A stretch of 64,000 nt of DNA from Gemmatimonadota bacterium (GCA_025359135.1 JANYHJ010000175.1:1-64000), one strand, 5' to 3'; shown: positions 60,212 through 64,000, counted from the stretch's first letter. The notes: generated by a model not told the origin, from the letters alone. Translations and numbers: made by a program.

Positions 60212-61150
60212 ATGGGCCTCGGCAACTTCCTGAAGAAGCAGTTCATCGATGTCATCCAGTGGACCGAATCGGATGACACCACGCTCGCGTGGCGCTATCC
60301 GATGGCGGACCAGGAAATCCAGTACGGCGGTCAGCTCACGGTGCGCGAGTCGCAGCGTGCGCTCTTCGTCAACGAGGGCAAGGTCGCCGACACGTTCGGC
60401 CCCGGCCTCCACACCCTCGAGACGCGGAACGTCCCGCTGCTCACCAACCTCAAGAACTGGGACAAGCTCTTCAAGTCCCCGTTCAAGAGCGACGTCTACT
60501 TCTTCTCGACGCGCACGCGGACGAACCAGAAGTGGGGCACGCAGAATCCCGTCACGATCCGCGACAAGGACTTCGGCGCCGTGCGCCTGCGCGCCTTCGG
60601 CATCTACAGCTGGCACTTGAGCGACCCGGTCGCGTTCCACACCAAGCTCTCCGGCACGCGCGAGAGCTACGGCGTGGCCGACATCGAGGGCCAATTGCGC
60701 AACACGATCGTCGGCGCGGTCTCGGCCGCGTTCGCGCAGAGCGGCGTGCCGTTCCTCGACATGGCGGCCAACACGCCGGCCATGGGCGACGCGATGAAGG
60801 CACTGCTCACGCCGACATTCGCCGACATGGGACTCGCGCTCGACTCGTTCATGGTCGAGAATGTCTCGCTCCCCGAGGAACTGCAGAAAGTCCTCGACCA
60901 GCGCATCCAGATGAACATGGTTGGCAACCTCGACCAGTACATGAAGTTCCAGGTGGCACAGTCGGTGCCGATCGCGGCCGCGAATTCTGGCGGTGGTGGC
61001 ATCGCCGGTCTCGGTGCCGGACTCGCCGCTGGCATGGGCATCGGCAACGCAATCTCGGGTGCCCTCAATCCGCAGGCCCCGACACCGCCACCGGCTGCGC
61101 CCGCCGCGCCTGCCGCCTCCGACGCGACGTCCAAGCCGAGCGGCTCGTGA
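60212..61150 (+). CDS. SPFH-domain protein of the virion-core/YdjI-like type
   Basis: 312 residues; GGAG lies 6 nt before the ATG at 60212. The start MGLGNFLKKQFIDVIQWTES is characteristic of this group, followed by LTVRESQRALFVNEGKVADT and NVPLLTNLKNWDKLFKSPFK. Residues about 200-255 form a helical SPFH tail. Unlike the usual members, which end in zinc ribbons, the end here is a Gly-rich stretch and a Pro/Ala tail. It opens a tightly packed cluster: the next ATG overlaps its stop by one base. A membrane-scaffold role is inferred. Confidence 0.87.
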   Translation: MGLGNFLKKQFIDVIQWTESDDTTLAWRYPMADQEIQYGGQLTVRESQRALFVNEGKVADTFGPGLHTLETRNVPLLTNLKNWDKLFKSPFKSDVYFFSTRTRTNQKWGTQNPVTIRDKDFGAVRLRAFGIYSWHLSDPVAFHTKLSGTRESYGVADIEGQLRNTIVGAVSAAFAQSGVPFLDMAANTPAMGDAMKALLTPTFADMGLALDSFMVENVSLPEELQKVLDQRIQMNMVGNLDQYMKFQVAQSVPIAAANSGGGGIAGLGAGLAAGMGIGNAISGALNPQAPTPPPAAPAAPAASDATSKPSGS

Positions 61151-61560
61151 TGGCCATCTACGGACAGGAATGGATCATCGAGGCGCGTGGCGCTGATGCC
61201 GCGCGCCTCGCAGATCAGGCGATCCTCGAAGCGCTCTTCACGCGCATCATTACGGAGTTGCAGCTGACCCCGGTGGCAGGGGCACAATGGCATCGGTTCC
61301 CGGCGCCCGGTGGCATCACCGGCCTGCAGATGCTCGCCGAATCGCACCTCGCGGTGCACACCTTTCCCGAGCACGGCACGCTCTGCCTCAACCTGTTCTG
61401 CTGCAAGCCGCGCAACGAGTTCGATTTCGCGTCGGCGTTGCGGCTCCTCGTCGGCGCGCAGGTCACGCAAGTACGCTGCCTCGAGCGGGCGTACGGACCC
61501 GAAGGACAGCATCGCGCACGCACGACGCCCGTCTCGGTCCGGGTCATCCGCTCCGAATGA
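61150..61560 (+). CDS. speH: S-adenosylmethionine decarboxylase (prokaryotic, pyruvoyl type)
   Basis: Produces decarboxylated AdoMet, the aminopropyl donor for spermidine. The 136 residues contain the self-cleavage site in LAESHLAVHTFPEHG, where the Ser after Glu becomes the pyruvoyl group, and LCLNLFCCKPRNEF with the catalytic Cys region. The length suits the bacterial SpeH-type. The start shares one base with the SPFH stop, and the next gene overlaps by ATGA. A spermidine synthase-like gene at the window end completes the reaction pair. Confidence 0.93.
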   Translation: MAIYGQEWIIEARGADAARLADQAILEALFTRIITELQLTPVAGAQWHRFPAPGGITGLQMLAESHLAVHTFPEHGTLCLNLFCCKPRNEFDFASALRLLVGAQVTQVRCLERAYGPEGQHRARTTPVSVRVIRSE

Positions 61561-62192
61561 GCGCGGTTCGCGCGTCATGTCCCAACTGCGGCGCGCAGAT
61601 CGAGTTCCGGTGGGCGCAGGCGGTGCAGGCGACGTGCGGGTACTGCCAGTCGATTCTCGTCCGACATGACCTCGACCTGACCAAGGTCGGCACGAGCACC
61701 ATCGTGCCGCTCACGCCATCGCCGATCCAGCTCGGCACCGAGGGCCGGTGGAACGGCCGCGGCTTCACCGTGATCGGACGCCTCGTCTACCGCTGGACCG
61801 GTGGCGGTTGGAGCGAGTGGCACTGCCGCTTCGACGACGACACGAGCGCCTGGCTCTCCGACGCGCAGGCCGACTACGTGCTCACGCGACTGGTCACGCC
61901 GGCTGATCGCCTGCCGGACATCGAGGCGCTGCATCCCGGACTGGTCGTGGTGCACGACCGGGTGCGCTACCGCCTCACCAGCGTGACACGTGCCAGCTAC
62001 GTCGGCACGGAGGGCGAGCTGCCGTTCGCGTACCAGCCCGGTCCCGACGTGCCGTTCGCCGACGCGCGCAGCGAGGACGGTGGTTTCGCCACCATCGACT
62101 ACAGTGAATCGCCGGCGCTGCTTTTTGTCGGCGAATCCGTCGAGCTCCGCCAGCTCGAATTGCGCAACCTGCGCGAGTTCGAGGGCTGGTGA
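61557..62192 (+). CDS. DUF4178 protein with zinc ribbon (first copy)
   Basis: 211 residues. A zinc ribbon opens the protein: CPNCGAQIEF and CGYCQS. The DUF4178 domain follows with GRWNGRGFTVIGRLVYRW and WSEWHCRFDDDTSAWLSDAQ, then a beta-rich second half with the phrase YSESPALLFVGESVELRQLEL. The domain is of unknown function and lies next to AdoMet decarboxylase and DUF350 genes in other bacteria too, as I recall. It overlaps both neighbours by 4 bp, so the products are probably made in fixed ratio. Confidence 0.88.
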   Translation: MSAVRASCPNCGAQIEFRWAQAVQATCGYCQSILVRHDLDLTKVGTSTIVPLTPSPIQLGTEGRWNGRGFTVIGRLVYRWTGGGWSEWHCRFDDDTSAWLSDAQADYVLTRLVTPADRLPDIEALHPGLVVVHDRVRYRLTSVTRASYVGTEGELPFAYQPGPDVPFADARSEDGGFATIDYSESPALLFVGESVELRQLELRNLREFEGW

Positions 62193-63508
62193 TAGGCGTC
62201 CCGGTTCGCGGGCTCAACTGTCCGAGCTGTGGCGCCGCGATCCAGCTGCGCGGCTTCCAGTTCTCGCAGAGCGTCGTCTGCAACAGCTGTCTGGCCGTGC
62301 TCGATGCGAGTGACGCCAACGTCGCCGTGCTGCAGACCTTCGACCAGAAGCTGTTCCGCTACGCACCGCAGCTTCCCCTTGGCAGCCGTGGCACGTGGAA
62401 GGGCGATCCGTGGGAGATCATCGGCTTCCAGGTTCGGCAGATCACCGTCGAGGGTGACAACTACCATTGGCAGGAATACCTCCTGTTCAATCCCTTCCGC
62501 GGGTATCGCTACCTCTCCGAGTACGAAGGACACTGGAACGACATCGTGGCCGTGCGCGGCCTTCCGAACGTGGAACGAAACCGTGCGCACCCGGTCGCTT
62601 CGTGGCACAACGAGGCGTTCAAGCTCTTCCAGACGTCGCACGCCACCACCGTCTTCGCACTCGGCGAGTTTCCATGGATGGTGGCGGTCGGTGATCAGCT
62701 CACCGTGCGCGACTACGTCGCGCCGCCGTTTCTCCTGTCGGCCGAGGAGACCGAGGACGAGGTGAGCTGGTCGCTCGGAGAGTACGTCTCCGGTGAGCGG
62801 TTGCGCGCGGCCTTCAAGGTCAAGGAGGCGCTCAAGGCGCCGAGCGGCACGTTCGCGAACCAGCCGAACCCGCGCGCAGGACGCGCCGGAGCTTACTGGA
62901 AGGGCTTCGGTGTGATGTTGGTCGCACTCATCGCGCTCGTGGTTCTGCGCTTCGCGTCCGCCACTGACCGCGTCGCGACTCACCTCGAGGGCAGCTTTCA
63001 CCCGGGCGTTGTCACTGACAAGGCGCCGTTCGTCTCCGACACCTTCACGCTCGGCGGGCGCACGTCGAACGTCGAGCTCGCGACGAAAAGCAGCGTGGAC
63101 GGCTCGTGGCTCTTCCTCGGCATGTCGCTCGTCAACGATTCGACCGGCCAGGTCCTCGAAGTCGGCCGCGAGGTCAGCTACTACTACGGCGTCGACGACG
63201 GCGAATCGTGGAGCGAGGGCTCCCGCACCGACCACGTCCGTGTGCCCGCCGTGCCCGCCGGTCGTTGGTTTCTCCGCATGGAACTCGACGGACCCGATTC
63301 CGGCCGCGCGATCGATTGGTCGGTGAGTGTACGCCGCGATGCGCCCGGCTTCGTCTGGTGGCTGATCGCGTTGGTGATCCTGGTCCTGCCACCCATCTTC
63401 ATCGGACTGCGGTCTGCCGCCTTCGAGACGACGCGCTGGGCCGAGTCCGATTTCGCACCGAAGGGATCGAGCCGCGACAGCGACGACGACTCCAGCTCCG
63501 ACGACTGA
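62189..63508 (+). CDS. DUF4178 protein with zinc ribbon and two membrane helices (second copy)
   Basis: 439 residues, GTG start overlapping the previous stop. A zinc ribbon (CPSCGAAI, CNSCLA) and a DUF4178 domain with GTWKGDPWEIIGFQVRQI and WQEYLLFNPFRGYRYLSEYE fill residues 1-225. A membrane helix (GVMLVALIALVVLRFA) follows near 250, then an external beta-sandwich with SYYYGVDDGESWSEGS. A second helix (FVWWLIALVILVLPPIFIGL) near 395 leads to an acidic Ser/Asp tail. The zinc ribbon should be cytoplasmic and the sandwich periplasmic. Confidence 0.9.
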   Translation: MIGVPVRGLNCPSCGAAIQLRGFQFSQSVVCNSCLAVLDASDANVAVLQTFDQKLFRYAPQLPLGSRGTWKGDPWEIIGFQVRQITVEGDNYHWQEYLLFNPFRGYRYLSEYEGHWNDIVAVRGLPNVERNRAHPVASWHNEAFKLFQTSHATTVFALGEFPWMVAVGDQLTVRDYVAPPFLLSAEETEDEVSWSLGEYVSGERLRAAFKVKEALKAPSGTFANQPNPRAGRAGAYWKGFGVMLVALIALVVLRFASATDRVATHLEGSFHPGVVTDKAPFVSDTFTLGGRTSNVELATKSSVDGSWLFLGMSLVNDSTGQVLEVGREVSYYYGVDDGESWSEGSRTDHVRVPAVPAGRWFLRMELDGPDSGRAIDWSVSVRRDAPGFVWWLIALVILVLPPIFIGLRSAAFETTRWAESDFAPKGSSRDSDDDSSSDD

Positions 63509-63693
63509 TGCCCATCCCACGCGGTTACCTCATCTTCGGCGTGCTGCTGCTTGCCACCGCCGCCGTCCTCGAGTTCCGTGGCACGAGCTTCGCCGCGACG
63601 CGAGAGAATCGCGGCGACCCGCGGTCCATCCGCAGCAACCCCGGTTCCTATCGGTCGACCTACTACGGCGGCCGAACTTCCTACGGCAAGTGA
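63508..63693 (+). CDS. Small membrane-anchored protein of the polyamine-linked cluster
   Basis: 61 residues; the ATG shares one base with the previous stop. One N-terminal helix (YLIFGVLLLATAAVLEF) is followed by a basic, Arg/Ser/Tyr-rich external tail with YRSTYYGGRTSYGK at the end. No family is recognised. Its place in an unbroken chain of overlapping genes argues that it is real. Confidence 0.75.
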   Translation: MPIPRGYLIFGVLLLATAAVLEFRGTSFAATRENRGDPRSIRSNPGSYRSTYYGGRTSYGK

Positions 63694-63707
63694 GGCTTGA
63701 GCGTCCC

Positions 63708-63917
63708 ATGGACATCCTGCTGAAGAACGTCACCGCCAGCGTCGTCTACGCCGTGCTGGGTATCGTCATCCTGCTTGGCGCGTTCGTGGCCGTCGACAAG
63801 CTCACGCCCGGCCACCTCTGGAACGAGATCCTCCAACAGAAGAACTCCGCCATCGCCATCCTCATGGGCTGCCTCGGCATCGGGATTTCGATCATCATCG
63901 CGGCGAGCATCCACTAG
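63708..63917 (+). CDS. DUF350 membrane protein
   Basis: 69 residues from the ATG at 63708; a GTG at 63690 overlapping the previous stop is the alternative. Two membrane helices are visible, SVVYAVLGIVILLGAFVAVD and AIAILMGCLGIGISIIIAAS, the usual two-helix DUF350 unit (YjfL-like). DUF350 proteins recur beside polyamine and amidoligase genes. Their function is unknown; a channel or anchor has been considered. Confidence 0.85.
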   Translation: MDILLKNVTASVVYAVLGIVILLGAFVAVDKLTPGHLWNEILQQKNSAIAILMGCLGIGISIIIAASIH

Positions 63918-63927
63918 GCCACGGCAC

Positions 63928-64000
63928 GTGGCCGCGGCGCTCTTTGCCACCGTCTGCCTGATCGCCGCCTGCGGGCTCGTCTACGAGCTCGTGGCCGGCG
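63928..64000 (+). CDS. Start of a membrane-anchored spermidine synthase-like protein (partial)
   Basis: Only 24 codons are inside the window, beginning with GTG at 63928. ALFATVCLIAACGLVYELVAG is the first membrane helix found at the N-terminus of polyamine aminopropyltransferases fused to a transmembrane domain, which typically follow a DUF350 gene. With the AdoMet decarboxylase gene 2.8 kb upstream this would complete the aminopropyl transfer pathway. The catalytic domain is outside the window, so the call rests on the N-terminus and context. Confidence 0.6.
   Translation, partial: MAAALFATVCLIAACGLVYELVAG

Follow-up and report, generated by a model that had tools for sequence, protein, structure and literature searches.

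A conserved bacterial operon joins an AdoMet decarboxylase and a seven-helix spermidine synthase-like protein to a small membrane protein with an invariant C-terminal lysine

Gene content and conservation of the operon

The window analysed here, a 64,000-nucleotide stretch of DNA from a Gemmatimonadota bacterium (C8:1-64000 of a 4.13-Mb assembly, on a contig that extends for another 50 kb), ends within an operon that encodes an S-adenosylmethionine (AdoMet) decarboxylase, a membrane-bound spermidine synthase-like protein (SpdSyn), and SPFH, DUF4178, DUF350, and small membrane proteins. An initial annotation had described seven consecutive genes on one strand and proposed a membrane-bound module that makes or attaches an aminopropylated product. 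All seven were found on the + strand in the order named, every named family was confirmed by Pfam or NCBIfam profiles, and an eighth gene lies beyond the window edge (aa, amino acids; TM, transmembrane helix; pLDDT, predicted local distance difference test):

60212..61150, + strand: SPFH/band-7 protein (Band_7_1), 312 aa, putative cytosolic membrane-associated scaffold (Pfam PF13421, 8.6e-76; tail comparison)
61150..61560, + strand: SpeH, class-1b AdoMet decarboxylase (AdoMetDC), 136 aa (AdoMet_dc PF02675, 6e-21; alignment to PDB 2iii/1tlu)
61557..62192, + strand: DUF4178a, 211 aa, N-terminal zinc ribbon plus DUF4178 (PF13785, 2.1e-18)
62189..63508, + strand: DUF4178b, 439 aa, with zinc ribbon, DUF4178, TM, beta-sandwich, TM, and acidic cytosolic tail (PF13785, 2e-20; alignment; AlphaFold2 pLDDT 88)
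63508..63693, + strand: small 61-aa protein with a single TM, the proposed acceptor (C-termini of relatives)
63688..63690, + strand: AAG codon of the invariant C-terminal lysine, immediately 5′ of the stop codon (sequence)
63708..63917, + strand: DUF350 membrane protein, 69 aa, 2 TM, conserved C-terminus (PF03994, 1.5e-12 over half the model)
63928-65424 of the contig (the window holds 63928..64000), + strand: 7TM-spermidine-synthase-like protein (SpdSyn), 498 aa (PRK03612, 1.7e-204)
65421-66953 of the contig, past the window edge: eighth gene, FAD amine-oxidase-like protein with a twin-arginine (Tat) signal, overlapping the SpdSyn gene by 4 bp

Within the window the first four junctions, rather than the first five as annotated, are overlaps (1, 4, 4, and 1 bp), and DUF350 and the last gene do follow within 15 bp (gaps of 14 and 10 bp). 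Genes 3′ of the eighth look unrelated to the operon, and neither an ATP-grasp gene nor a potassium channel gene, which it had been suggested might follow past 64 kb, is apparent among the long open reading frames (ORFs) in the next 13 kb of the contig.

The operon is conserved as a unit. Among 200 Gemmatimonadota genomes, DUF4178 occurs in 20, always as exactly two adjacent copies; AdoMetDC adjoins the pair in 19 of these 20, and the identical eight-gene order is found in 17, a degree of conservation that is far beyond chance. Near relatives include Gemmatimonadota metagenome-assembled genomes (L083, with an SpdSyn protein 88% identical) and Gemmatirosa kalamazoonensis, where the operon resides on a 1.1-Mb plasmid (NZ_CP007129.1:1071269-1072768). 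In another family of the phylum (L080 and L081) both DUF4178 proteins are fused in one ORF of 640-690 aa and the neighbouring SPFH gene is absent; in G024 the cluster consists of SPFH, DUF4178a, and DUF4178b only, and SpeH, SpdSyn, the oxidase, and the small protein are missing there. When 84,980 species genomes were scanned with the SpdSyn profile, 80 loci were recovered; they come from Gemmatimonadota, Acidobacteriota, several classes of Proteobacteria, Verrucomicrobiota, Elusimicrobiota, Spirochaetota, Planctomycetota, Fibrobacterota, a Vampirovibrio, FCPU426, and others, and the module is mostly preserved across about 11 phyla. Of nine genomes that have no oxidase gene in the operon, eight carry one at another locus; where SpdSyn is unlinked to DUF4178, two DUF4178 genes are found elsewhere in all nine genomes. 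The comparison of gene neighbourhoods across phyla supports the idea of a co-inherited membrane module. In a plasmid-borne version from Alteromonas (L166:11009-12633), a TelA-like "toxic anion resistance" protein and a coiled-coil membrane protein replace the PspA and CesT-like proteins of other operons.

The C-terminal lysine of the small protein

The most informative part of the operon, overlooked in the initial annotation, is the invariant C-terminal lysine of the 61-aa protein. This protein consists of a short N-terminus, one TM, and an Arg/Tyr-rich tail ending in -Gly-Lys-COOH; the tail follows the pattern PRSVRDNPGAYRS..Y...GR..RGK within the phylum, where 19 of 19 relatives share the Gly-Lys terminus. 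On a wider scale, a C-terminal Lys is present in all 105 distinct acceptor candidates from about 11 phyla, comprising 91 standalone small proteins, 7 tails fused to DUF4178, and 7 larger lipoproteins. The standalone proteins were Lys-ended in 84 of 84 records (80 after subtraction of 4 duplicates), falling into 43 clusters below 60% identity, and 11 further Lys-ended proteins found later complete the 91. Both lysine codons (AAA and AAG) and all three stop codons are used among relatives.

Four non-equivalent architectures carry the lysine end: i) the 1-TM protein; ii) a small lipoprotein; iii) in Variovorax- and Rubrivivax-like genomes, a TM and tail fused to the end of a DUF4178 protein, with an HK terminus in 7/7; and iv) a lipoprotein of 190-510 residues with a GK end (7/7), which is found in place of the small protein in L173 and in operons of group 2 in the scheme of Ravi et al. 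2024, the latter containing PspA, a CesT-like protein, DUF4178, a 4-8TM DUF350, and SpdSyn, but no oxidase. L173 is an SpdSyn locus without the group-2 neighbours, yet it too has the GK-ended lipoprotein. The tails are otherwise unrelated between phyla, as illustrated by ...VARSAYHK, ...GPKGHSSYHK, and ...ASGYTGPSHK.

Because a few candidates had first been noticed through their lysine, we also carried out a positional survey in which candidates were chosen by position, with no selection on lysine. The lysine end was found in 44/44; once these 44 were removed, roughly 1% of the remaining small ORFs with a TM in the same loci had such an end, and no comparable conservation of a C-terminal residue was seen in the other operon proteins. 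The Lys-tailed protein is retained in operons without the oxidase (group 2, and Ensifer L167), and the cluster from which it is missing, that of G024, is the only one to have lost SpeH, SpdSyn, and the oxidase. Nine SpdSyn loci with no small protein nearby looked like exceptions; in these genomes, where SpdSyn is unlinked, a Lys-tailed neighbour of the DUF4178 pair is present in 6 of 6 readable loci, the other three loci being too short. Several other proteobacterial SpdSyn loci, belonging to another subtype or not long enough, were counted only if the tail protein was readable.

Enzymes, partner proteins, and sides of the membrane

SpeH appears to be a genuine AdoMetDC. Its motif AESHLAVHTFPEH...LFCC retains the pyruvoyl Ser, His, Cys, and Pro; by the features of class 1b these are pyruvoyl Ser63, His68, and Cys83 (T. 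maritima numbering) together with Pro, in the motif ESHLAVHTFPEHGTLCLNLFCC, and the motif is kept in 19/19 relatives. According to PMC10407285, which also gives the roles of the residues, the Pro distinguishes true AdoMetDC from arginine decarboxylase (ADC). Since this marker and all the catalytic residues are retained, we rejected the possibility that SpeH has been neofunctionalised to decarboxylate ornithine or arginine. We also rejected the idea that the genome holds another functional AdoMetDC: in the AdoMet_dc-like paralog on C127 (G000:C127:43340-43654; L082:9323-9661) the pyruvoyl Ser is replaced by Cys and the catalytic Cys is absent. Weak AdoMet_dc matches, mostly single, are common in the same family of genomes.

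SpdSyn combines an MFS-like N-terminal half, a seventh TM (TM7), and an aminopropyltransferase domain whose residues Y263, H264, D310, D342, D360, and D363 are invariant in 44 sequences. These match Tyr102, His103, Asp127, Asp178, Asp196, and Asp199 of the Plasmodium enzyme (PfSpdS), which serve there to bind the aminopropyl group and the amine that attacks it. By PDB fold comparison the domain resembles 1uir, and the residues for decarboxylated AdoMet (dcAdoMet) and for the amine are present. SpdSyn thus shares fold and catalytic residues with canonical SpeE (1uir, 2o06, 2hte), but canonical SpeE is cytosolic and soluble, uses putrescine or agmatine as acceptor, and has no membrane part, whereas SpdSyn is not of the soluble cytosolic type, having seven predicted TM helices and a domain predicted to lie outside; the gatekeeper loop is also altered, to DFPDPSNYxxGK. 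No other close SpeE-like gene was found in the genome. A 1013-aa fused MFS/spermidine-synthase subfamily protein (G000:C236:8220-11260; L194) is distinct from the operon enzyme.

The oxidase of the window genome has an FAD-binding GxGG motif and scores above the cut-offs of NAD_binding_8 and DAO; for its Novosphingobium ortholog the cut-off of PF01593 is likewise exceeded. A twin-arginine signal is present in 43/45 oxidases. Elsewhere in the genome are a biosynthetic arginine decarboxylase, SpeA (TIGR01273; score 782.8 bits, cut-off 624.1), and two genes of the arginase/agmatinase family; the initial observation that no ornithine or arginine decarboxylase is encoded therefore holds for the window but not for the genome.

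The window SPFH protein lacks a C-terminal zinc ribbon, a loss that within the phylum is limited to the window's genus, where a plain Pro/Ala tail is found instead. The earlier suggestion that the DUF4178 ribbons replace the lost SPFH ribbon fails, since 16 of 18 relatives in the phylum carry the SPFH ribbon plus both DUF4178 ribbons. SPFH tails vary by lineage (L066-L081, L083-L162), with a zinc ribbon in 32 of 52 named loci and a SHOCT-like helix in Proteobacteria. The DUF4178a ribbon is present in 20/20 relatives, and the DUF4178b ribbon cysteines C11, C14, C31, and C34 are invariant in the alignment. AlphaFold2 (pLDDT 88) predicts for DUF4178b a TM at about 230-257, a beta-sandwich at 262-383 on the outer side, and a second TM at 389-418; of the proposal that both DUF4178 proteins are cytoplasmic adaptors there remain the ribbons, which would be inside, but DUF4178b would not be purely cytoplasmic. 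In a fold search DUF4178b matched nothing beyond generic jelly-roll or beta-sandwich structures, with low TM-scores, and a profile sequence search gave only zinc ribbons such as LysW.

On which side of the membrane does the lysine lie? The lipoprotein forms have ordinary lipoboxes (LFSC in Burkholderia; LISAC, LLSAC, and LQGC in group-2 operons), which places their Lys tails outside the cytoplasm, and the DUF4178-TM-tail fusions point the same way. The 7TM part of the SpdSyn fusion has been described in Ravi et al. 2024 (PMC11237479). Lys plus Arg in SpdSyn is 8.8 in loops 2/4/6 versus 2.3 in loops 1/3/5, with even exceeding odd in 44/44 sequences; TM7 is strongly hydrophobic (mean hydropathy 1.87 over the 44 sequences); the loop features resemble an MFS N-terminal half; and group-2 members have lysine-rich N-terminal tails. 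An N-terminus inside followed by seven helices puts the aminopropyltransferase domain outside, and we accordingly predict that it occupies the outer face of the inner membrane, a placement with which the Tat export of the oxidase agrees. The side assigned to the transferase comes only from the charge rule and the predicted TM count; that it is shared with the lysine, which is outside in the lipoprotein forms, is a tentative conclusion. The domain contains little Cys (0.30 per 100 aa), in line with an outer location, but so does SPFH, and the value does not settle the matter.

A candidate aminopropyl acceptor, alternatives, and related systems

Starting from the gene set and order, the intact active sites, and the invariant C-terminal lysine with its extracytoplasmic place in lipoprotein forms, all of them read from sequence, we propose that the operon encodes a membrane-spanning protein-modification module in which SpdSyn aminopropylates the C-terminal lysine of the small exported protein, a reading to which we assign a probability of roughly 0.5. 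Cytosolic SpeH, judged by its intact catalytic residues, would make dcAdoMet; the MFS-like seven-helix part of SpdSyn, together with DUF350, would carry dcAdoMet, or just its aminopropyl group, to the outside; there, on the predicted outer face, the SpdSyn domain would transfer the aminopropyl group to the side-chain amine of the terminal Lys; a Tat-exported flavin amine oxidase, if present, might oxidise the resulting spermidine-like end; and the complex may be assembled by cytosolic SPFH and DUF4178 proteins, with ribbons inside and the beta-sandwich outside. The side chain of lysine is an aminobutyl group and is putrescine-like, so that the aminopropylated product would have a spermidine-like end. 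The evidence suggests that the enzyme, instead of producing free spermidine, adds a group to a protein end outside the cytoplasm, in keeping with the annotation's attachment of an aminopropylated product and with its view that the acceptor need not be putrescine, a view also published (as cited in PMC11237479). The full generalization, a widespread extracytoplasmic post-translational modification in which exported dcAdoMet gives an aminopropylated C-terminal Lys on a membrane-anchored protein, a spermidine analogue oxidisable by the exported amine oxidase, is more tentative, and we hold it at somewhat less than even odds.

Several observations weigh against modification of the lysine outside the cytoplasm. 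dcAdoMet is cytosolic, its export is an added assumption, and we know of no dcAdoMet transporter. In the AlphaFold2 model of the L083 SpdSyn ortholog (pLDDT 90), DSSP reads residues 127-180, which span TM5 and TM6, as a continuous helix, and a hairpin at P155-G158 is not resolved; were this helix a single crossing, the SpdSyn domain would lie inside. D363, the Asp that binds putrescine at its distal amino group, is retained and is compatible with a free diamine acceptor, and with SpeA and agmatinase-family genes in the genome putrescine may exist, so the gene content is compatible with ordinary spermidine synthesis. On that account SpdSyn would be a membrane-anchored SpeE that uses the product of SpeH and either putrescine or agmatine derived from SpeA to make spermidine or aminopropylagmatine; the SpeA and arginase/agmatinase-family genes, the absence from the genome of another close SpeE-like gene, the intact catalytic residues, and a best solved relative that is a triamine/agmatine aminopropyltransferase all favour it. 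It would nonetheless leave the Lys-tailed protein, the exported oxidase, and the predicted outer domain unexplained, and another acceptor was proposed by Li et al. 2019, as cited in PMC11237479; we regard ordinary synthesis as distinctly improbable.

The invariant lysine could also act as a docking signal and not as a substrate. SpdSyn would then aminopropylate a small molecule or a lipid head group, consistent with its full set of active-site residues for a small amine and with the lipid environment suggested by DUF350 and SPFH, and the C-terminal Lys would serve only in docking or charge-pairing to hold the complex together. A docking motif should conserve neighbouring residues as well, yet the tails are unrelated between phyla and architectures and a free terminal Lys is the one residue they share; we think such a role unlikely, though worth serious consideration. 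Less probable again, and in our view very doubtful, is direct action of the Tat-exported oxidase on the C-terminal Lys, in the manner of a lysyl oxidase generating an aldehyde for cross-linking, with a separate product for the aminopropyltransferase. Oxidase and tail are both predicted to be outside, and the oxidase is encoded elsewhere in 8 of the 9 genomes that lack it in the operon, but the Lys-tailed lipoprotein of group 2 and the small protein of Ensifer are kept without a cluster oxidase, whereas SpdSyn is always there.

The type of cluster is not new. Clusters of AdoMetDC, an MFS-SpdSyn fusion, and DUF350, with a proposed non-putrescine acceptor, were published by Li et al. 2019 (Biochem J 476:2579, cited in PMC11237479). 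Their enzyme pair, DUF350 linkage, and inference of a non-putrescine acceptor resemble what we find, but neither a small Lys-tailed protein nor an outer location is mentioned in the account of them given by the citing paper. We know of no acceptor named for those clusters. Ravi et al. 2024 (PMC11237479) described PspA-linked polyamine operons, including group 2 and band-7 variants, one variant having a polyamine oxidase; DUF4178, DUF350, 7TM-SpdSyn, a lipoprotein, and a band-7 or PspA scaffold are the shared or corresponding features, while the operon here differs in having two DUF4178 proteins, a 1-TM 61-aa protein replacing the lipoprotein, a fixed Tat oxidase, and SPFH replacing PspA/CesT. 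We found no report of the C-terminal lysine in the text consulted. Co-location of the 7TM-SpdSyn fusion, AdoMetDC, DUF350, and DUF4178 places our operon in the cluster type of Li 2019/Ravi 2024, but the CesT/Tir-PspA dyad of group 2 is absent from the eight genes and SPFH stands there instead. What is new is the invariant C-terminal Lys across architectures; earlier papers had already described such clusters and suggested an acceptor other than putrescine. The literature searched, which left subscription papers and preprints outside, contained nothing on the C-terminal lysine, on an SpdSyn domain outside the cytoplasm, or on lysine aminopropylation of bacterial proteins, and no paper in it named three or more of M. 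tuberculosis Rv2597-Rv2601 and speE.

Two further systems offer parallels. The E. coli peptide-spermidine ligases YjfC and YgiC, with the DUF1190 proteins YjfM and YgiB, are likewise DUF350-linked (yjfL) and have an exported protein with a Gly/Ser-rich tail; however, yjfIJKLMC uses an ATP-grasp peptide-spermidine ligase, and the DUF1190 partners, whose modification is putative, end in -GG in 5/6 rather than in -GK. By analogy, the yjf/ygi systems and the operon here may plausibly yield the same kind of product, a protein whose C-terminus carries a spermidine-like end. One DUF1190 protein, in L195, is without the GG end, and its terminus looks frameshifted. Diatom silaffins are small secreted proteins whose lysines bear propylamine units, and aminopropyltransferase fusions of bacterial origin have been proposed as the enzymes (PMC3820600). 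Silaffins are eukaryotic, however, and their modified lysines are internal, in many repeats, and N-methylated.

The invariant lysine on an exported partner provides a concrete acceptor candidate for the MFS-SpdSyn aminopropyltransferases of many bacterial phyla. If our reading is true, bacteria would carry out protein lysine aminopropylation, a chemistry otherwise known from diatom silaffins; an AdoMet-derived transfer would be located outside the cytoplasm; and the DUF350, DUF4178, and SPFH/PspA envelope systems would share one chemical task, parallel to that of the E. coli yjf/ygi peptide-spermidine ligases.

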